A stretch of DNA of 36,955 nucleotides, from positions 1 to 36,955 of IMG/VR virus record IMGVR_UViG_3300031707_006564. One strand, written 5' to 3'. Within the stretch, counting starts at the first letter, position 1; every line of letters starts with the position of its first letter. A program made the translations under genes and the position numbers. Below are positions 1 to 36,955 of the stretch, piece by piece. The notes under the pieces were generated by a model. That model saw only the letters and a list, made by a program, of their open reading frames with translations. It searched no databases and had not been told where the DNA came from. This DNA comes from a virus.

Positions 1-519
1 GGAGATGACTTGGTTGCTGATTATGTTGGGTTCGATACGGTTGACTTTGTTCTAGCGCCAGCCCAGCCACGCAATCTTGCACCGGCTCACGGCGCCACCG
101 GTGTGAGACAGACTCCAACACTACAAGCCTCGATATTCTCCGACCCAGACGTCAACGATACCCATGCGGCCTCTCAGTGGCAGTTGAGAATAGCCTCTGG
201 TGCCTATTTGACTCCGATCTACGATAGTGGCACGGACACCACCCACCTCATAGCCATCACTATCTCATCAGGTGTGTTGAGCCAGTCTACCACCTACGGC
301 TGGCACGTCAGGTATCAGGGGAGATCAGGTCTGTGGTCTGATTGGTCTGGCGAAACCCTCTTTAGGACGGAGGGCAAGGGCGGGATTCCCGCCTGGATCT
401 GGGTTGTTGTCGTTGTAGCAGTCTTGGTCGTGGGAGCTGTTGCCTATGTGGCCGCTACCAGACGTGTTAGGCGTGTGTCGAAGCCTAGGTCGAAGCCTAG
501 GTACCGGATTACGCCATAA
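1..519 (+). CDS. Fn3-like surface protein, 5'-truncated by window edge
   Basis: The frame is open from base 1, so the true start lies upstream of the window. The visible part carries one Fn3-like module (proline-rich AQPRNLAP entry, then TPTLQASIFSDPDVNDT and a TYGWHVRYQG strand), then a hydrophobic helix (roughly residues 125-150) beginning near GIPAWIW and a very basic arginine-rich tail ending in YRITP. This tail is the shape of a membrane anchor or sorting signal. It is about 94% identical by eye to the complete gene at 30555-31160 on the opposite strand, which has a signal peptide, so this copy probably had one too. It is convergent with the phage ssb gene. Function is unknown; it is probably an exported, anchored protein. 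Confidence 0.7.
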   Translation, partial: GDDLVADYVGFDTVDFVLAPAQPRNLAPAHGATGVRQTPTLQASIFSDPDVNDTHAASQWQLRIASGAYLTPIYDSGTDTTHLIAITISSGVLSQSTTYGWHVRYQGRSGLWSDWSGETLFRTEGKGGIPAWIWVVVVVAVLVVGAVAYVAATRRVRRVSKPRSKPRYRITP

Positions 520-20602: not shown

Positions 20603-21568
20603 ATGGCCGGTACATACACACTGGCTGATCTTAGCAAACTGGAGAAGGACACTCTGCGGAAGTCCGTCATCGACGGTCTACTGATGGAGTGCGACCTGAT
20701 GCAACTCGTGCCTTGGGAGACTCTTAACCAGTTGAGTACCACCATCGTCCGATATTCGGAGATCCCGAGCATTGGCTTCCGAAAGATCAACGAGGGGTAC
20801 GCTGAGGGCTCCGGCAAGACCGAGCAACTGACTGAGCAGATCAGCGCGATGGGTCGGAACATAGACACCGACAAGCTCATCGTGGCCACCAAGAACACCA
20901 TAGCCGAAGCGCGCGCTCTGCGGCAGGCACAGGTGCTCAAGGGCGTGGCCTACACGTTCAACGACAAGTTCATCAATGGTAGCCGGGTGACTACTCCCAC
21001 GGAGTTTGATGGCCTTCTCTACCGGCTCGACCAGGGGCCGGCAGCGCAGAAGATCACTGCCTCGTCTGCCTCGGGTGGACTCGCTGTCATGGCCGATACA
21101 GCGGGGATGAACACCTTCCTGGACAAGCTGGACGAACTGATCTACGCCATCGATGGCCACAGGCCGGATGCCCTGCTGATGAACAAGACTGCCCTACTCA
21201 AGACGCGCTCGGTTCTCCGCAGACTGGGTTTGCTGTCCCAGACCAAGGACATGTTTGGCCGGACCATTGACATGTACGGCACAGTCCCGTTGTACGACAT
21301 CGGGGTCAAGGCCGACCAGAGCACGCTCATCATCACCAATGGCGAGACCGGCTCCGGTGGTGGCACCGCGCAGTGCACGTCGATCTACGCGGTCAAGTTC
21401 GGGATAGGCGAGCAGTTCTGGGGCATTCAGACCTACCCGATCGATGTCAATGACAAGGGCCAACTGGAAGATGGGGTTACGTACAGAACGGTGGTCGATT
21501 GGCCTCTGGGCTTCGCCAACGCCGGCCGAAGGTCGATAGCCAGACTGTACAGCCTCTACTTCGCATAG
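20603..21568 (+). CDS. Major capsid protein
   Basis: The 321-aa protein follows the scaffold gene and has an HK97-type order: an N-terminal helical arm, then TTIVRYSEIPSIGFRKINEG and EQLTEQISAMGRNIDTDKLI, which match the region of the E-loop and spine helix, and P-domain-like GHRPDALLMNKTALLKTRSV. The C-terminus has VKFGIGEQFWGIQTYPIDV, typical of capsid A-domain strands. An AAAGGAG site sets the start. It should form the icosahedral shell. Expression is expected to be the highest of the late genes. Confidence 0.85.
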   Translation: MAGTYTLADLSKLEKDTLRKSVIDGLLMECDLMQLVPWETLNQLSTTIVRYSEIPSIGFRKINEGYAEGSGKTEQLTEQISAMGRNIDTDKLIVATKNTIAEARALRQAQVLKGVAYTFNDKFINGSRVTTPTEFDGLLYRLDQGPAAQKITASSASGGLAVMADTAGMNTFLDKLDELIYAIDGHRPDALLMNKTALLKTRSVLRRLGLLSQTKDMFGRTIDMYGTVPLYDIGVKADQSTLIITNGETGSGGGTAQCTSIYAVKFGIGEQFWGIQTYPIDVNDKGQLEDGVTYRTVVDWPLGFANAGRRSIARLYSLYFA

Positions 21569-29065: not shown

Positions 29066-29317
29066 ATGGAAGAGGTCAAAGTCTGGGGTGAGATCGGCGC
29101 AATCGGGGCCATCATCATCTTCGCGTCCTGGATGCTGAAGTCAATCCTCGACCGGCTGAAGGTATCAGACGCGACCAACGACAAGATGACCGTCATGCTG
29201 GAGAACCATCTGACTCACATCAAGGACCACATGGCGGCAAGCAACGAGGCCATGAAGGATATCCTAGAGAGTCAGAAGGCGATATGTCAGGAACTGAAGA
29301 ATCTGAAGAAGGGCTAA
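29066..29317 (+). CDS. Holin-like membrane protein
   Basis: The 83-aa protein has one transmembrane segment (IGAIGAIIIFASWMLKSIL, residues about 9-27) and a long coiled-coil tail ending in lysines. This shape (short N-terminus, one helix, charged coil) fits class III-type phage holins or hemolysin-XhlA-like proteins, which usually accompany an endolysin gene. It is the last complete gene of the late operon. No endolysin is found next to it. The call is from topology and position only. Confidence 0.6.
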   Translation: MEEVKVWGEIGAIGAIIIFASWMLKSILDRLKVSDATNDKMTVMLENHLTHIKDHMAASNEAMKDILESQKAICQELKNLKKG

Positions 29318-29319
29318 AC

Positions 29320-29355
29320 GTGAACAATCGCCAGGAGTGGCTGCACCCCGTTTGA
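29320..29355 (+). other. Eleven-codon frame after holin-like gene, possible gene remnant
   Basis: GTG at 29320, two bases past the holin-like stop and behind GAAGG, opens NNRQEWLHPV and then stops. Late operons often place the endolysin here. It could be the surviving start of a truncated lysis gene, marking the right edge of the phage segment, or just chance. Confidence 0.25.
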
Positions 29356-29462
29356 CGTCTTCTGTTCGGTCACTATCATCCCCCCTCTCTGAATAGGCAT
29401 GCTAAAATCACTTGCGATATCATATCACCCCGACCTCAGCGTCACAGTCAAAGCGGTCGCTG

Positions 29463-29735
29463 CTACTTCTTCTGTCCCTGAGTGGGATTGACTGCTGCTC
29501 CGCATTTCGAGCAGAAGCTGGCTCGTTCCTGTAATGGATGGCCGCAACTGCTACAGAACCCCAGTGTTGCTCCTGGCATCACCTGTTGACTTCCCCTACT
29601 CTTACGAACGACAAACATGATGACTGCCACAAGCGCTGCGATGAATACGATGACCAGCACCGCACCAATTATCAGAACCTCAAGTACACCCAACGACGAC
29701 CCTGGGTCAATGTAGGCCGGAGATATACCCACCAT
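29463..29735 (-). CDS. Zinc-ribbon membrane protein
   Basis: The 90-aa protein has one transmembrane helix (VLEVLIIGAVLVIVFIAALV, residues about 17-44), then a basic stop-transfer segment and a zinc ribbon FCSSCGHPL followed by FCSKCGAAV (C-x2-C, 9 residues later C-x2-C). The ribbon is probably cytoplasmic. Small proteins of this design are widespread in bacteria, with unknown role. It starts at 29735 behind GAGGTGA, downstream of a TTGACA promoter (29767-29795) that shares sequence with the promoter of the 1427-aa protein. Confidence 0.75.
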   Translation of the reverse strand: MVGISPAYIDPGSSLGVLEVLIIGAVLVIVFIAALVAVIMFVVRKSRGSQQVMPGATLGFCSSCGHPLQERASFCSKCGAAVNPTQGQKK

Positions 29736-29766
29736 GAACTCACCTCAGACTGAAATCTCGCCTCAG

Positions 29767-29795
29767 ACAGTAGCAGTGAGAGTGGAGGATGTCAA
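29767..29795 (-). promoter_or_regulatory. Promoter of the zinc-ribbon gene with shared upstream box
   Basis: TTGACA (29790-29795) and TACTGT (29767-29772) are 17 bases apart on the minus strand. Bases 29790-29816 match 35747-35773, ahead of the 1427-aa gene, at 24 of 27 positions. Confidence 0.6.
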
Positions 29796-29817
29796 CCTCA
29801 GCTTGGATACAGAGAGG

Positions 29818-29835
29818 GTGGACATCTCTGCCCAC
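29818..29835 (-). repeat. 18-base repeat, copy 1
   Basis: On the minus strand GTGGGCAGAGATGTCCAC; identical to 30532-30549. It stands just upstream of the zinc-ribbon promoter and just after the end of the exosortase-like gene. Confidence 0.8.
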
Positions 29836-29841
29836 GCTCCG

Positions 29842-30474
29842 CTACGCCCCAGATTTTGCCACTCTGACCGTCCGCGGCTTCAGAGTCCACACCCATCCGG
29901 CCCAGAGAAGCAACACAAACACCATGTTGAAAAGGTAGAAGTAGTTGTGAACATTGACGCCAGTCCGCCACTCTATGTAGATACTGATGAAAATCCTGAA
30001 CAGGTTGAATACAACAAGGCCAACCAGACCCATGCCGAGGCCGATAAGGCGCTGTCTGGGGGTAGCTCTGGGTTCGGCCAGAGCCAAAGCCATGCAGGCC
30101 CAGAAAAGCAAGCCTCCAAGGCAGGCCACATCGATCTGAAAAATGAGCAAAGGCTCCTGAACCGTTATCGTTGAGCCAGACACGAGATTGTGCACGCTGG
30201 CCGACTCCAAAGCATCGCCTACTACTACCGCAGTCAGATGCTGGAGCGCCCTGTGCACAGAGGGAGCTAGCCATAGGATGATGGCCTCCAGGGACAAGAA
30301 GAGCAGGAAGGCAATGGCATAGCGGACAATGTAGCGCAGAAAGGGGCGCTTAATACTACGACCCGCGATAATGTAGCCTATCGTGCCAAAGCCGGCGATG
30401 ATGCCGAAGATGACCACCAGCGCCACAGCTAGACCTATAGCCCAATCGGAGGTTGCGCTGGTAGTGGTATTCAA
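29842..30474 (-). CDS. Exosortase/archaeosortase-like transpeptidase
   Basis: The 210-aa integral membrane protein has about six to seven helices. It carries the catalytic pattern of the exosortase/archaeosortase superfamily in order: a cysteine in IDVACLGGLLFWA, an arginine in VFNLFRIFISI and a histidine in VHNYFYLFNMVF. These enzymes cut tripartite C-terminal signals of exported proteins and are thought to attach the protein to lipid. The start is TTG at 30474, after AGAGGGA; the frame begins MNTTTSATSDW. Downstream and upstream lie genes for proteins with suitable C-termini. Substituted residues near the cysteine (LGG rather than the usual SGI/TGI) mean it could be a divergent subfamily. 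Confidence 0.7.
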   Translation of the reverse strand: MNTTTSATSDWAIGLAVALVVIFGIIAGFGTIGYIIAGRSIKRPFLRYIVRYAIAFLLFLSLEAIILWLAPSVHRALQHLTAVVVGDALESASVHNLVSGSTITVQEPLLIFQIDVACLGGLLFWACMALALAEPRATPRQRLIGLGMGLVGLVVFNLFRIFISIYIEWRTGVNVHNYFYLFNMVFVLLLWAGWVWTLKPRTVRVAKSGA

Positions 30475-30531
30475 TGTTGGCTGTCCCTCTGCAACGTTAA
30501 TACATCAACAACGAAGACGGATGCAAGAAGA

Positions 30532-30549
30532 GTGGACATCTCTGCCCAC
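30532..30549 (-). repeat. 18-base repeat, copy 2
   Basis: Identical to 29818-29835. It lies between the Fn3-like gene and the exosortase-like gene, 58 bases upstream of the TTG start of the latter. Downstream the sequence CTCTTCTTGCATCC resembles CCTCTCTGTATCC of the other copy, mostly by transitions. Confidence 0.8.
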
Positions 30550-31070
30550 CCGAGTTATGGCGTAATCCGGTACCGAGGCTTCGAGACACGCCTAACACGC
30601 CTAACACGCCTGTTAGCGGCCACATAGGCAACAACTCCCACAACCAAGACTGCTACAACGACAACAACCCAGATCCAGGCGGGAATCCCGCCCTTGCCCT
30701 CCGTCCTAAAGAGGGTTTCGCCAGACCAATCAGACCACAGACCTGAGCTCCCCTGATACCTGACGTGCCAGCCGTAGGTGGTAGACTGGCTCAACACACC
30801 TGATGGGATAGTGATGGCTATGAGGTGGGTGGTGTCCGTGCCACTATCGTAGATCGGACTCAAATAGGCACCAGAGGCTATTCTCAACTGCCACTGGGAG
30901 GCCGCATGGGTATCGTTGACGTCTGGGTCGGAGAATATCGAGGCTTGTAGTGTTGGAGTCTGGCTCACACCGGTGGCGCCGTGAGCCGGTGCAAGATTAC
31001 GTGGCTGGGCTGGCGCCATAGCAGAGTCAACCGTATCGAACCCAACATAATCAGCAACCAAGTCATCTCC
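30550..31070 (-). repeat. Long inverted repeat, right copy
   Basis: Reverse complement of the left copy at 1-524. The match continues to the window edge, so its true length is unknown. It contains most of the Fn3-like gene. Confidence 0.85.
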
Positions 31071-31160
31071 AGTGGTGTGACATGGGTAAAAGAGGCTAGG
31101 AAGAAGAGCAGTGACAATGGCCGGGATCAGCAACAGGCAGAGTATTCGAGTGCCACGCAC
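30555..31160 (-). CDS. Fn3-like exported protein with C-terminal anchor
   Basis: The 201-aa protein has a signal peptide (MRGTRILCLLLIPAIVTALL), one Fn3-like module similar to those of the 1427-aa protein (TPTLQASIFSDPDVNDT), then a hydrophobic helix from GIPAWIW to YVAA and an arginine-rich tail. The tail has the tripartite form expected of exosortase/archaeosortase substrates. The gene starts at GTG 31160 after AGAGGAT, 41 bases downstream of the 1427-aa gene, so the two may be cotranscribed. A near copy lies at 1-519. Confidence 0.75.
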   Translation of the reverse strand: MRGTRILCLLLIPAIVTALLPSLFYPCHTTGDDLVADYVGFDTVDSAMAPAQPRNLAPAHGATGVSQTPTLQASIFSDPDVNDTHAASQWQLRIASGAYLSPIYDSGTDTTHLIAITIPSGVLSQSTTYGWHVRYQGSSGLWSDWSGETLFRTEGKGGIPAWIWVVVVVAVLVVGVVAYVAANRRVRRVRRVSKPRYRITP

Positions 31161-31174
31161 TCTACATCCTCTCT

Positions 31175-31206
31175 GAGCGGCCTTGCCCTGACCTGTGCCT
31201 GCTACG
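31175..31206 (-). repeat. 32-base intergenic repeat, copy 1
   Basis: It matches 35651-35682 with 6 differences in 32; the minus-strand core is TCAGGGCAAG. It begins at the stop codon of the 1427-aa gene and precedes the Fn3-like gene. Confidence 0.7.
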
Positions 31207-34200
31207 AATGTGCCAGTCTCCTGCGGACAAAGTAGGCCATTATGCCTGCTCCAAGAGCTGCCCCGATGCCTACATAGATACTGGGGAAGGCTGGGGCTGA
31301 ACTAGCTCCTCCGCCACCAGGGCCATATGGGCCAGGCCAGCCAGGGCCACCCTGGTCATTTATGGCACCATTGATTGTGAAGTCATCATCGCCCGTTGCA
31401 CCGTCTTGCAGAGTGATGGTGATGATGTTGTCCCCGTCATTGTCACCAAAATCTATCCTGTACCAGCCCACAGTTGGGTTCCATTTCCAGTACTGCGCTG
31501 TGGTCGGCACGGCATAAGGAAGCGTTATGTACAGCGTCACCAACCCACCTGGCTCCAAGCCGGTTATGTCAAACTCAAAGAGGCCGTGTGGGAACAGAAG
31601 GCTCGGCTTCCCGTCAGTAGGCAGCGCGCCATCGTCTATCGCCGTGAGATTCCTCACCGGGCCTCCGTCCATGGCGAATGTGGCCACCCCAGTACCGGTC
31701 GCTGTAGTGACTTGACTGACTGATGGTTGCAGGGATGGTCCTGAGACAATGACCTGGTCAGTGTAGCCATCCCCATTGGTGTCTATCGTTACGCTTGCAC
31801 CTGCGTCGCCATTAGAAAAGGCGGTCGAGTCAAAGGTGTACTCATGAGTGGCACTGGTTGAAGTGAACATGTTGGCAGCATCGAAGGTCGTCACTTGGTC
31901 GCCTTGAACTAAGCTTGTGGTCAGTCCATATGCGCCGTCACTCAGGCCAACCACAACGGACCGATAGATGCCGGATGGTTCGAGTACTATGATTTTCCCA
32001 GTTTCCGGGTCACATGACGAATCTGGGATCTCGTACTTGAGTTCGCCATCGACCACGCCAGTGACTCTGCCTTCTGAGTCATATAGAGCAACTTCAACCG
32101 GACTGTGTGGTATGACCACCATTACCCCTCCGACAAACACGTAGGCGCGCAGCACCGTAGGGTCCCAGAACTCCGGTCGATTCCATGGAGCCTCGACTTT
32201 CATTGTGGACTCGTAGGTAAGATAGCAGTCTTCTTCATCCAGGTCCTCTGGATGGACGGATAGCCTACCCAAGACAGGTTGAAACTCCATGCTTGACAGA
32301 TATTCTTTGTCCGCCGACCCGAATATCCTCCATTTGTCAGATTCGCTGCCAACCATGCCATGACTCCCAAGTTCCACATAAGCTTGCAGCTCGTCAATGC
32401 TCGAGACGTTGTACCCGTAGAACCTTTGGTGGTAGCTCACGACGTAGTAGAATGGCTGCCCGAAGCTATCCACCCACACCCAAGCTGCCTCAAAGTCATG
32501 CTCGTGATCCAAGAGGCCAAAATCATTGTAGGCATAGTAGTACCAATACTCGTAAACAGTGAACCCAAGGGACTCATATGGCCTGATGTGATAGTAGCAG
32601 ACAGATTTCGAGCCCAGCAGGCCGTCGGCTCCACAATTCTCATGATTGTTCCATACGTAGTCATCTCCTACGTACTGGTCATCTCCATGGACATCCGTAG
32701 GGAAGAACCTCTCACTTGTGTCGTAGTGCAACTTCGGCGCGTACGCGGTGACTTCTGGGGGGACAGTGTAGTCAAAGTGACGTGTGATTGAGCCTCCGGG
32801 CGCCAGTGCTAGACTACTAGAGCCGGGCGCAACCAACTCAGGGATGTTCTCCCACGTGATCGTGTAATCGCCCGGGGTCATGTAGTCATAGTGCCAGGGT
32901 GTACTCATCTCAACATATGTCGGGCCGTCGAGAGTGAATAATGCGCCAGGCGGGTCGCTTGTCACGCTCATGGAGCCGTAGGCGGGTGGAACTGCGGCTG
33001 TAGTGAACGAGGTCTCGTTAGAATAGCTGGACCACGCTCCGTGATTGTCCTGATACTTCACATGCCAGTAGTAGGTTATGCCAGGGTTCAGCGTTCCTGA
33101 AGGAACAGCTAGTGTGGGCAATCCCGTGATGCTTGAGAAACCATACACAGGGGCTGAGTAGTCTCCTGAAGTCATCGTTATCTCCCACTGGGAGACTGCC
33201 ATCGTGTCTCCGGCATCCGGGTCTGAGAATGTGGAGGACTGCAAAGTGGGTGTCAGGCCGATACCAGGAGCGCCGTTTGACGGTGAGACATTAGAGGGCT
33301 GGGCAGGCGGTTGGTTGGGTGCCGTAATGGTGGTAAACGACGTCTCGTTAGAATAGCTGGACCAAGCCCCGTGGTTGTCCTGATACTTCACATGCCAGTA
33401 GTAGGTTATGCCAGGGTCTAGCGTTCCTGATGGGACAGTGAGCGCAGGAAGTCCTGTGATACTGGAGAAACCGAATACAGGGGATGAATAGTCTCCTGAA
33501 GTTGCCGTTATCTCCCACTGGGAGACTGCCATGGTGTCTCCGGCATCTGGGTCAGAAAAAGCTGATGCTTGCAGGGTAGGAGTCAGGCTGACGCCTGAGC
33601 CAGTTGGCGAGGCGTTGGTGGGCTTGGCAGGGGGCGAGTTGGGTGGAGTAGCTCCTTCCAGGTAGTGGAGGATCCTACCACCATACCCTACAGTGAACAC
33701 ATCATACGTAGAACTGCCCCAAATGCTGCATAGTCCTTGCGCAACTTGGCTTATTCGACTCCAAGTAGTGCCATTGTAGTGATAAATGCCATCCCAACAG
33801 GCGTACACATCCGAAGAAGAAGTTCCCCAGACACCCTGAAACGTCTTCCCCATGGTCTCCCCCGGGAAATTGGTCATCGGGCTCCAAGTTGCACCGTCAT
33901 AGTGGTAGACACCATAGTATGTTGATGATCCAACAGCAAATACGTCGGTAGGTGAGCTACCCCAAACACCGGAGAGTGAGGCGGAGATGGAGGAGATCAT
34001 ATACGTCCACGAATTGCCATCATAGTGAAAGATGGTGCCGTTCTGACCAACGACGAAAACGTCAGACGAGGAAGAGCCCCAAACACCGGAGAGCCCAGGT
34101 ATACCAGTCCTCTGCACGCTCCAAGCAGTGCCGTTATAGTGAAGGATGGCACCGAGATTTTGTTGAGTGGCTATGTCCCATTGGGATGCTACGGCAAAGA

Positions 34201-35485
34201 CGTCTGAGGATGAACTGCCCCAGACATCACGAAGGCGATAAGTCGTGGGGCTGGTCATGGCGCTCCAAGCGCTGCCATTGAAGTGACGGATAACGCCATG
34301 ATCCCCAACTGCGAAAACATCCGAGGAGGAACTACCCCATACACCATACAACTCGTATGGTGCACTGGTTATCCTGCTCCAGGTGCTGCCATCATAATGG
34401 AGGACTGGGCCAGTGGAGGTTTGCCAGTCGTAACCCACAGCATAGACGTTGGAGGAGGAACTACCCCAGACATCCGTCACGTCGAATAGATAGCCACTAC
34501 TCATTTGGCTCCAGGTACTGCCATTGTAGCGGAGAATCATGCCGTCGTAGCCTACCGCAAAGACATCAGTAGCAGAACTGCCGCAGACATCAAACCAGAC
34601 CCCCAATACGCCCGTGCCTGTGTTCATTGAGATCCAAGAACTACCGTCATAGTGAAGCATGGTATGATCGCCCGCAATGAAGACGTCTGACGATGAACTG
34701 CCCCAGACACCATAGAGAACATTCCCCTGATTCCTCGAGGTCCACGAAGTGCCGTTGTAGTGAAGGATGGTGCCACCGTCTCCCACCGCATACACGTCGT
34801 TCGTGGAACTACCCCAAACCCCCCAGAGTTGCCTCGTGCAGCCGGTACTCACTTGGCTCCAAGTGCTACCGTTGTAGCGCAGGACCAGAGAAAGATTGGC
34901 TTCGTAGTCATAGCCCACAGCATAGACGTTGGATGAGGAACTACCCCAGACATCGTATAGGGCGATGCCTCCCGTAATGCCGCTGTTCATGGTGCTCCAT
35001 GTGCCTCCACTATAGTGGAGGATGATTCCGTCATATCCCACAGCATAGACGTCATTCGAAGAGACTCCCCAGACGCCTGAAAGACTGGTGTCTATTGAGC
35101 CAGTGTCCATTCGGTTCCATGTGCTACCATCGTAGCGGATGACCAGACCCAGCTCGTACCCTACAGCGAAGATGTTTGAGGATGAGTCTCCCCAGATATC
35201 GCTAAGACCGTATTGGGTGCCGCTGTTCATAGGACTCCAGCTACTGCCGTCGTAGTGCAGGATAACACCAGTATCCCCTACAGCGAAGACATCCGAAGGT
35301 GAACTTGCCCAGGTGGAATAAAGGTCATTCCCTTGTGGGAGGGGATTCTGCCATCCCCAGCCGTCAGGGCTGATGACTATGGAGTCTGCGGCCACAGCCT
35401 TCGGCTGATGAACTAGCGGAAGGATTGAGGCGATCATGGCCACTATGAGGATTAGAGTCGCAACTCCCGTCTTTACTCGTGACAC
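31202..35485 (-). CDS. 1427-aa multidomain cell-surface protein
   Basis: GTG start at 35485 behind GGAGGT. Domains in order: signal peptide (residues 1-33, ending KAVA); about 13 propeller-like repeats of roughly 44 residues (VWGSSSSDVFAVGDHG, LHYDGSSWS) to about residue 605; two nearly identical Fn3-like modules (about 612-722 and 723-832); a PEGA-like domain (833-909, SVTSDPPGALFTLDG); a VPS62-like region (910-1130, PKLHYDTSERFFP, HDFEAAWVWVDSFG, YVELGSHGM); and a choice-of-anchor U-like domain (about 1265-1375, FPHGLFEFDITGLEPG, GDNDGDNIITITLQDG). It ends in a glycine-rich linker, a hydrophobic helix and RRRLAHS. It is exported and probably anchored by the exosortase-like enzyme. Binding partner is unknown; an adhesin or receptor mask is possible. 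Confidence 0.85.
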   Translation of the reverse strand: MSRVKTGVATLILIVAMIASILPLVHQPKAVAADSIVISPDGWGWQNPLPQGNDLYSTWASSPSDVFAVGDTGVILHYDGSSWSPMNSGTQYGLSDIWGDSSSNIFAVGYELGLVIRYDGSTWNRMDTGSIDTSLSGVWGVSSNDVYAVGYDGIILHYSGGTWSTMNSGITGGIALYDVWGSSSSNVYAVGYDYEANLSLVLRYNGSTWSQVSTGCTRQLWGVWGSSTNDVYAVGDGGTILHYNGTSWTSRNQGNVLYGVWGSSSSDVFIAGDHTMLHYDGSSWISMNTGTGVLGVWFDVCGSSATDVFAVGYDGMILRYNGSTWSQMSSGYLFDVTDVWGSSSSNVYAVGYDWQTSTGPVLHYDGSTWSRITSAPYELYGVWGSSSSDVFAVGDHGVIRHFNGSAWSAMTSPTTYRLRDVWGSSSSDVFAVASQWDIATQQNLGAILHYNGTAWSVQRTGIPGLSGVWGSSSSDVFVVGQNGTIFHYDGNSWTYMISSISASLSGVWGSSPTDVFAVGSSTYYGVYHYDGATWSPMTNFPGETMGKTFQGVWGTSSSDVYACWDGIYHYNGTTWSRISQVAQGLCSIWGSSTYDVFTVGYGGRILHYLEGATPPNSPPAKPTNASPTGSGVSLTPTLQASAFSDPDAGDTMAVSQWEITATSGDYSSPVFGFSSITGLPALTVPSGTLDPGITYYWHVKYQDNHGAWSSYSNETSFTTITAPNQPPAQPSNVSPSNGAPGIGLTPTLQSSTFSDPDAGDTMAVSQWEITMTSGDYSAPVYGFSSITGLPTLAVPSGTLNPGITYYWHVKYQDNHGAWSSYSNETSFTTAAVPPAYGSMSVTSDPPGALFTLDGPTYVEMSTPWHYDYMTPGDYTITWENIPELVAPGSSSLALAPGGSITRHFDYTVPPEVTAYAPKLHYDTSERFFPTDVHGDDQYVGDDYVWNNHENCGADGLLGSKSVCYYHIRPYESLGFTVYEYWYYYAYNDFGLLDHEHDFEAAWVWVDSFGQPFYYVVSYHQRFYGYNVSSIDELQAYVELGSHGMVGSESDKWRIFGSADKEYLSSMEFQPVLGRLSVHPEDLDEEDCYLTYESTMKVEAPWNRPEFWDPTVLRAYVFVGGVMVVIPHSPVEVALYDSEGRVTGVVDGELKYEIPDSSCDPETGKIIVLEPSGIYRSVVVGLSDGAYGLTTSLVQGDQVTTFDAANMFTSTSATHEYTFDSTAFSNGDAGASVTIDTNGDGYTDQVIVSGPSLQPSVSQVTTATGTGVATFAMDGGPVRNLTAIDDGALPTDGKPSLLFPHGLFEFDITGLEPGGLVTLYITLPYAVPTTAQYWKWNPTVGWYRIDFGDNDGDNIITITLQDGATGDDDFTINGAINDQGGPGWPGPYGPGGGGASSAPAFPSIYVGIGAALGAGIMAYFVRRRLAHS
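33000..33660 (-). repeat. Tandem duplication of Fn3-like coding units
   Basis: Two copies offset by 330 bases (110 codons) are highly alike in DNA; for example CGTTAGAATAGCTGGACCA occurs at 33016 and 33346. The identity is higher than between the protein modules of other genes here, which suggests a recent duplication or gene conversion. Confidence 0.85.
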
Positions 35486-35650
35486 GGCGACACCTCCTTC
35501 ACAGGCATGGTATATCCTGTGGCTGTGTGATCGTCAGAACACCGGCAAAACAAGATAGGCTTGAAATGAAGACAGCTACGCCGATGCTGGGAGAACCTGA
35601 GTATCCCATGGGACGCGCAGGCCAGGCTACTCACGTTGCACCCCCCTTAC

Positions 35651-35682
35651 GAGCAGACTTGCCCTGATCCGTGGCTGCTATG
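35651..35682 (-). repeat. 32-base intergenic repeat, copy 2
   Basis: It is in the leader of the 1427-aa gene, about 165-195 bases before the start codon. Copy 1 lies at 31175-31206, just ahead of the Fn3-like gene. Confidence 0.7.
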
Positions 35683-35721
35683 TGGACATGTATGCGGAAT
35701 TCGATTGGGATAACTGCCTGG

Positions 35722-35752
35722 ATAGTAGCACACAGCCACTATTGGTTGTCAA
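35722..35752 (-). promoter_or_regulatory. Promoter of the 1427-aa surface gene with shared box
   Basis: TTGACA (35747-35752) and TACTAT (35722-35727) are 19 bases apart, rather wide. The adjoining 27 bases (35747-35773) match 29790-29816 at 24 positions. Confidence 0.55.
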
Positions 35753-35788
35753 CCTGAGCGTCGATACAGAGAGACCATGAACAGAAAG

Positions 35789-35819
35789 GGAAGAAGGCTC
35801 CGACTTGGAGCCTTCTTCC
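35789..35819 (-). terminator. Hairpin terminator of the integrase gene
   Basis: GGAAGAAGGCTCC and GGAGCCTTCTTCC form a perfect 13-bp stem with a 5-base loop, 63 bases past the integrase stop. Reading from the integrase, CTTTCTGTT follows, an imperfect T-run. It could stop transcripts from either side. Confidence 0.75.
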
Positions 35820-35881
35820 TGTTGGAGTGACTTTCAACCTAGTCCGTCAGCCCAGGCCAGAGACAAGTGGTGGACAGTAGG

Positions 35882-36955
35882 CTACTGCCACTTGATGTTG
35901 CCACCGAGGGCGTCGTCGCTGGACATTCGCCGGACGTACTGTTCAAGCACCGCCACCGAATCCCACCCACCGACCAACTGGACGAACTTGATAGGAACGC
36001 CGGCCTTGAGATTGCGCCACGCCCAGGAGCGCCTGAAGATGTGATGAGCGTCTCGGATGTTGAACAGCCGCGTGAGCTTCACCTTGCACACCGGGCACAC
36101 ATACTCTCGGCAAACGAACTCCAAGCCCTCGTACTTCTTGTCACACTGAGGACACTGGTATCCCGAGGCTGCATCCATGAGCCGAGGCACCACCTGTCCT
36201 ATTCCTATGGGCGTTATGGGTCTCTTCTCTTCTGTCAGCCATAGCTCTGGCATCTTGTCTTCCCGCCTCTGGAGATACCGATAGACCGCCTTCTGTGCGT
36301 CCGGTGTGAACGGTATCCGTCTTTCCTTGCTGCCCTTGCCGAACACCCTGATCCTTGAGGTAGTCCAGTCCAGGTCGTCTTTCTTGAGATTGGCCAACTC
36401 TGAGAACCTCGCGCCGGTAGTCCACAGCAGCCACAGCCAAGCCTTGTCTCTCACCCCGGCGAAGGTACTGAGCGCACACATGGAGAGCAGCTTGTGGAAC
36501 TCTTCAGTCGAAAGGAAGTCCTTCTCATACCGCGGGACTTTGGGAACCTTGATATTCCCCAGAGGATTCTTGGTCATGTGGCCCTCAACAACCAGCCAGT
36601 TGAAGAACACCCTGATTGCCCCATAGCTTGACCGGACGTAGTGAGGGGATCGCCGGCCACCACGTCTGGACTCGCCCTCTTTCATGTGGAGCAGCCAGAA
36701 CTCCATGTCCGTCTTGGTGATCTCTGTCGGGTCCTTCCCGATGAACTTCACCATGCCCGAGATGCGGTCGCTGTAGCTCTTGATGCTGGCCGGACTACAG
36801 TTCTCGATGCGCCGGGAGAGCAGGAAGTTGTTGACAAGTGGATGCATGCCATCGCCAGAGGGAGGCCTACTGCCCATGCTCAGGGGGGGGTAATCCCTTA
36901 GTCCACCTGATCTTGGATGTGACAAAATCCCTTGGTCCAGAGCTACTTTTTCCAT
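35882..36955 (-). CDS. Tyrosine recombinase/integrase with inserted zinc ribbon
   Basis: The frame is 357 codons and open to the window edge, so the start could be at 36955, beyond, or at ATG 36877 or 36847; none has a clear ribosome binding site. Residues about 37-140 are the SAM-like core-binding domain (SPASIKSYSDRISG). The catalytic set is complete: R183 (TTGARFSEL), K207 or K210 (GKGSKERR), H305-x2-R308 (HHIFRR), W331 (GGWDSVAV) and Y340 (EQYVRR). Between the K and H boxes sits C268-x2-C271 with C287-x2-C290, a zinc-ribbon-like insert. It should catalyse site-specific integration and excision. No directionality factor or attachment site is evident. Confidence 0.9.
   Translation of the reverse strand: MEKVALDQGILSHPRSGGLRDYPPLSMGSRPPSGDGMHPLVNNFLLSRRIENCSPASIKSYSDRISGMVKFIGKDPTEITKTDMEFWLLHMKEGESRRGGRRSPHYVRSSYGAIRVFFNWLVVEGHMTKNPLGNIKVPKVPRYEKDFLSTEEFHKLLSMCALSTFAGVRDKAWLWLLWTTGARFSELANLKKDDLDWTTSRIRVFGKGSKERRIPFTPDAQKAVYRYLQRREDKMPELWLTEEKRPITPIGIGQVVPRLMDAASGYQCPQCDKKYEGLEFVCREYVCPVCKVKLTRLFNIRDAHHIFRRSWAWRNLKAGVPIKFVQLVGGWDSVAVLEQYVRRMSSDDALGGNIKWQ
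36892..36939 (+). repeat. Two direct copies of AATCCCTTrGTCCA at integrase start
   Basis: 14-base copies at 36892-36905 and 36926-36939 differ at one base and are 34 apart. They might be integrase arm-type sites or an operator. They would lie inside the coding region if the start is at 36955. Confidence 0.55.

Follow-up and report, generated by a model that had tools for sequence, protein, structure and literature searches.

Archaeosortase A of Haloferax is a cysteine enzyme paired with a tripartite tag (PGF-CTERM: motif, helix and basic residues), and it has been proposed to cleave its targets and attach them to lipid via the active-site cysteine (PMC7157517). The rhombosortase/GlyGly-CTERM and sortase/LPXTG systems have the same tag architecture, although their enzymes are unrelated; where there is a single target, its gene lies next to that of the enzyme (PMC3237569). 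The locus described here shares the tripartite tag, the cysteine enzyme and a proposed model of cleavage and lipid attachment with archaeosortase A, but is bacterial and carries another motif. Among named types, exosortase H (XrtH, TIGR04177) and archaeosortase B (ArtB, TIGR04144) score best for the enzyme relatives from two genomes (G008 and G001). They are alike in length class and catalytic pattern, with a tag that begins with a Pro-containing motif, but the relatives score only 40.9 against a cut-off of 86 and 43.1 against a cut-off of 150. The position between late genes and integrase, a promoter-like element of its own and a foreign composition further liken the locus to phage lysogenic-conversion (moron) genes. 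Neither viral_contigs nor the literature searched yielded an exosortase as phage cargo.

The window analysed is the whole of a linear IMG/VR record (IMGVR_UViG_3300031707_006564; 36,955 nt) from a Chloroflexota (Dehalococcoidia) bacterium. In its phage core (positions 562–29317), the minus-strand genes come first and encode SSB, SbcC, SbcD, RadC and an ArdC-like protein; the plus-strand genes that follow encode TerL, a 2228-aa virion-type protein, the major capsid protein, fibre-like proteins and, last, a holin-like protein. Beyond the core, all on the minus strand, lie the genes for a zinc-ribbon protein, an exosortase, a small Ig protein and a large surface protein (hereafter the block), and then a tyrosine integrase. 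All four block open reading frames were confirmed where the first-pass annotation had placed them, as was their position between the last late gene and the integrase. We conclude that the enzyme–tag pair is real and looks host-derived. Our main reading (probability roughly 0.55) is a host-derived anchoring unit of a rare Dehalococcoidia type, most likely carried by the provirus as independently transcribed cargo.

The enzyme gene (29842–30474, minus strand; 210 aa, TTG start) exceeded the superfamily cut-offs in profile searches against exosortase/archaeosortase families (TIGR04178, 31.6 bits, cut-off 23; PF09721, 30.5 bits, cut-off 25.7). Alignment showed that C118, R160 and H176 are kept in all, or all but one, of 11 relatives, bearing out the superfamily's C, R, H catalytic pattern that had been read from the sequence at first pass. 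The enzyme scored far under every type cut-off of the named types (XrtH, ArtB, XrtX, XrtY, ArtF and pacearchaeosortase), and the window copy itself reaches the superfamily signature TIGR04178 only. A confident AF2 model (pLDDT 84.9) predicts a multi-helix membrane protein with six long helices and a small strand element before the cysteine. A fold search against PDB and viral models gave no match, which for PDB is expected given that no solved relative exists. Relatives were sought in 15 genomes of the same order and 393 of the same class: 10 of the 393 Dehalococcoidia genomes encode one (38–62% identity), all chromosomal, and the closest come from two Chloroflexi MAG contigs. The type is rare, as only one genome in a wider Chloroflexota sample (n = 301) carries a relative. 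In a tree of 11 enzymes, branching was mostly unresolved and the window copy fell among chromosomal copies. In one genome (G004), a relative with a longer open reading frame (L040:366–1256) has both the catalytic cysteine and histidine changed to serine and, from its sequence, is a probable non-catalytic paralogue. Another (L046; G156:C70) is reduced to a remnant interrupted by in-frame stops, and its genome still encodes a protein end with the tag. In G008, each of the two exosortase contigs also bears a condensation-domain gene, and these two genes are closely similar (L038:1002–2411 and L042:9221–10651).

The large surface protein (31202–35485, minus strand; 1427 aa), identified as a probable substrate by domain profiles and a tag profile match, has a signal peptide-like N-terminal stretch, 11 propeller-like repeats and Ig_Rha78A domains. 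The choice-of-anchor U-like domain that the first-pass annotation had noticed in one exported protein proved to be a match to choice_anch_U (NF041766, 92.9 bits, residues 1294–1382). The protein ends in the tail AFPSIYVGIGAALGAGIMAYFVRRRLAHS, with a C-terminal tag of the form AFPSIY-helix-RRR. Tag alignment and a genome search delimit this class-A sorting tag (SSAPAFPSIYVGIGAALGAGIMAYFVRRRLAHS; 31205–31303, minus strand), which is the true C-terminus. The comparison with known sorting signals that the first-pass annotation had proposed gave no match for the class-A tag above the cut-off of any NCBIfam sorting-signal (CTERM) model.

Four chromosomal loci (G002:C194, G008:C21, G008:C80 and G076:C206) have, immediately upstream of the exosortase, a gene whose product ends in this tag, with the sequence VPVFPxIYxGxxAAxGAxxxxYxxRRR or one very like it; AFPSIYVGIGAALGAGIMAYFVRRR is the counterpart in the large protein of the window. 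The bodies of the tagged proteins differ (propeller with choice-of-anchor U, InlB-type repeats with Ig, and others without a family), and the tag matches are true C-termini. A profile built from five tags was run on 36 genomes or records. At E<1e-4 it matched 6 of the 10 genomes with an exosortase and none of the 25 without (best negative, 4.5e-4). The profile also catches other-type tails in G008; with these and the seed tags removed, the counts were 4 of 10 positive and 0 of 25 negative (Fisher 0.004), where two of the four non-seed genomes rest on a frame-disrupted gene and a partial open reading frame. By profile, three exosortase-positive genomes (G004, G175 and G179) had no clear tag and one (G009) had a weak tag. 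The link between enzyme and large protein is supported by profile matches, by the neighbouring genes at the four chromosomal loci and by the co-occurrence of tag and enzyme across genomes. Judged by sequence, the large protein is probably the substrate of the window enzyme. The pairing of rhombosortase with GlyGly-CTERM drew on the same kind of evidence (PMC3237569), which is here of much smaller scale. New here are the chromosomal enzyme relatives, the same tag on otherwise different upstream proteins, and the confinement of the tag to exosortase-positive genomes at E<1e-4 among 25 negatives. VPxFPxIY-helix-RRR and its enzyme thus represent an unnamed exosortase–tag pair in uncultured Dehalococcoidia, and offer a testable handle on surface-protein anchoring in these bacteria.

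The small protein (30555–31160, minus strand; 201 aa) has a signal peptide-like start, an Ig-like domain (domain profile), a helix and a basic tail, so that both exported proteins do end in a hydrophobic helix and basic tail, as described at first pass. Its class-B tail (IPAWIW-helix-RRVRR) is of a second type, GLxxWIWIVVG...RRR, which a tail search found to be abundant in G008 and present also in exosortase-free G005, G010 and G011. The small protein was therefore set aside as an exosortase substrate and is probably an ordinary anchor held without the exosortase. Of the substrate links first suggested from tail shape and proximity, the one to the large protein is supported and the one to the small protein is doubtful. 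The WIWIVVG-type tail is common to at least seven surface proteins of G008 (contigs C10, C24, C35, C64, C82 and C85). A second copy of the small gene, absent from the first-pass annotation, lies inverted at the left end of the record, which cuts it (1–519, plus strand). The two copies are 97% identical over 476 nt within an inverted repeat (1–524 and 30550–31070), and of the 11 codons that differ in the stretch compared, 8 change the amino acid; the arrangement could permit a 30-kb inversion or reflect diversifying copies. The remaining block gene (29463–29735, minus strand) encodes a one-helix zinc-ribbon protein of 90 aa (Zn_Ribbon_1, 34.5 bits). On a chromosome contig (G008:C24), relatives of this protein come after a large surface protein with the second tail type, so the association of zinc ribbon and surface protein is chromosomal too.

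Repeat comparison revealed an element (GTGGGCAGAGATGTCCAC...; 29805–29835, minus strand) upstream of the zinc-ribbon gene, followed by a promoter-like pair (TTGACA-17-TACTGT). A second copy precedes the exosortase gene (30519–30549, minus strand), and the large protein gene is preceded by a partial copy that includes a TTGACA box (35740–35775, minus strand). The 31-nt repeats flanking the exosortase were considered as recombination sites, but this third, partial copy led us to prefer shared upstream regulatory elements. A strong terminator-like hairpin of 13 pairs (35789–35819, minus strand) after the integrase gene separates it from the block. Together with the element shared by the large protein, exosortase and zinc-ribbon genes, the hairpin predicts that the block is its own transcription unit. 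Rfam gave no match within the block.

The integrase (35882–36955, minus strand; Phage_integrase, 73.6 bits) has a zinc-ribbon insertion of ~30 aa that is absent from its nearest relative, which is solitary on a chromosome contig (G008:C29) amid sugar-nucleotide genes with no exosortase or tagged protein beside it. The right end of the record coincides exactly with the integrase start codon, ATG. As three other IMG/VR records (L120, L121 and L152) are likewise bounded exactly at an integrase ATG, the right edge most likely represents a computed boundary of the provirus; on its own, it is no proof that the block is part of the phage.

Alternatively, the prophage may end near 29.4 kb and the block be adjoining host chromosome, the record having been extended to a nearby integrase by provirus-calling software; the exosortase pair would then be an ordinary chromosomal system. 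The computed edge would fit this, as would the copy of the same small-gene family at the left edge. Codon usage is host-like and unlike that of the phage core in the small gene, its left-end copy and the large gene (GC3 about 0.58), ambiguous in the enzyme and zinc-ribbon genes, and deviant in some phage core genes too. Chromosomal relatives exist for every block gene, and pattern scans of viral_contigs, which may miss very near records, found no exosortase of this type. The first-pass annotation had asked whether the block occurs with and without phage genes: homologous gene pairs do lie on phage-free chromosome contigs, but not at one conserved locus. By contrast, the integrase has phage-like codon usage (GC3 0.73, log-likelihood +18.3) and no second integrase was found in the phage part of the record. 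Direct repeats of ≥12 nt between 1–1000 and 29301–36955 were also absent, so that nothing points to an attachment site separating the block from the phage. Whereas yggS, proC or sir2 adjoin the enzyme at the chromosomal loci, the block has no housekeeping gene. Its composition, foreign to the phage core, and its own transcription signals are as expected of lysogenic-conversion cargo. The proposal of a phage-borne system is plausible and partly supported, by position, the phage-like integrase and the missing att-like repeat, and is weakened by host-like codon usage, the computed edge and the homologous chromosomal pairs. On this balance, we place the block inside the prophage with somewhat better than even confidence, and regard host flank as a serious but lesser possibility. 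Should phage carriage be true, it would mark the first case, within the collections searched here, of an exosortase borne as phage cargo, and would add a new route by which lysogeny changes a cell surface.

Under the main reading of a provirus-borne anchoring unit, the large protein would be exported by Sec and retained by its C-terminal helix. The exosortase would cleave it near the AFPSIY motif and, by analogy with archaeosortase A, the enzyme cysteine may take the new C-terminus and hand it to an envelope acceptor, be it a lipid or another molecule. As independently transcribed cargo, the unit would alter the surface of the lysogen. Given that haloarchaeal S-layer proteins act as virus receptors (PMC9973310), it is plausible that a surface protein supplied by the phage could change adsorption. 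A bolder version, in which a temperate phage carries a complete host-derived exosortase–substrate anchoring system with inverted surface-gene copies near both ends and installs a new enzyme-anchored surface layer, for example blocking superinfection, is tentative and, in our judgement, doubtful. Alternatively, the exosortase-like protein could be inactive or act on other proteins, with the large protein anchored by an uncleaved helix. Non-catalytic copies exist, as the G004 relative without cysteine and histidine indicates, but the window copy keeps all catalytic residues, and tag and enzyme are adjacent at four other loci and co-occur across genomes, making this improbable.

A further reading, in which the integrase region belongs to an integrative element or island of its own that adjoins the phage or lies within it and itself bears the exosortase unit, would suit the lone integrase relative amid sugar-nucleotide genes on G008:C29 and the shared strand of integrase and block genes, but is very unlikely, as the G008 integrase is not beside an exosortase or tagged protein and as the terminator and codon usage set the window integrase apart from the block.

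Single-sequence scans with the terminase, integrase and exosortase found no close relatives of the phage. A terminase relative (G150:C147) lies on a small element without other phage genes and was set aside as uninformative on the block. The major capsid protein (20603–21568) has relatives of ~30% identity in 165 of the 393 Dehalococcoidia genomes, mostly one per genome, which may represent widespread prophages or possibly a gene-transfer-agent-like element.
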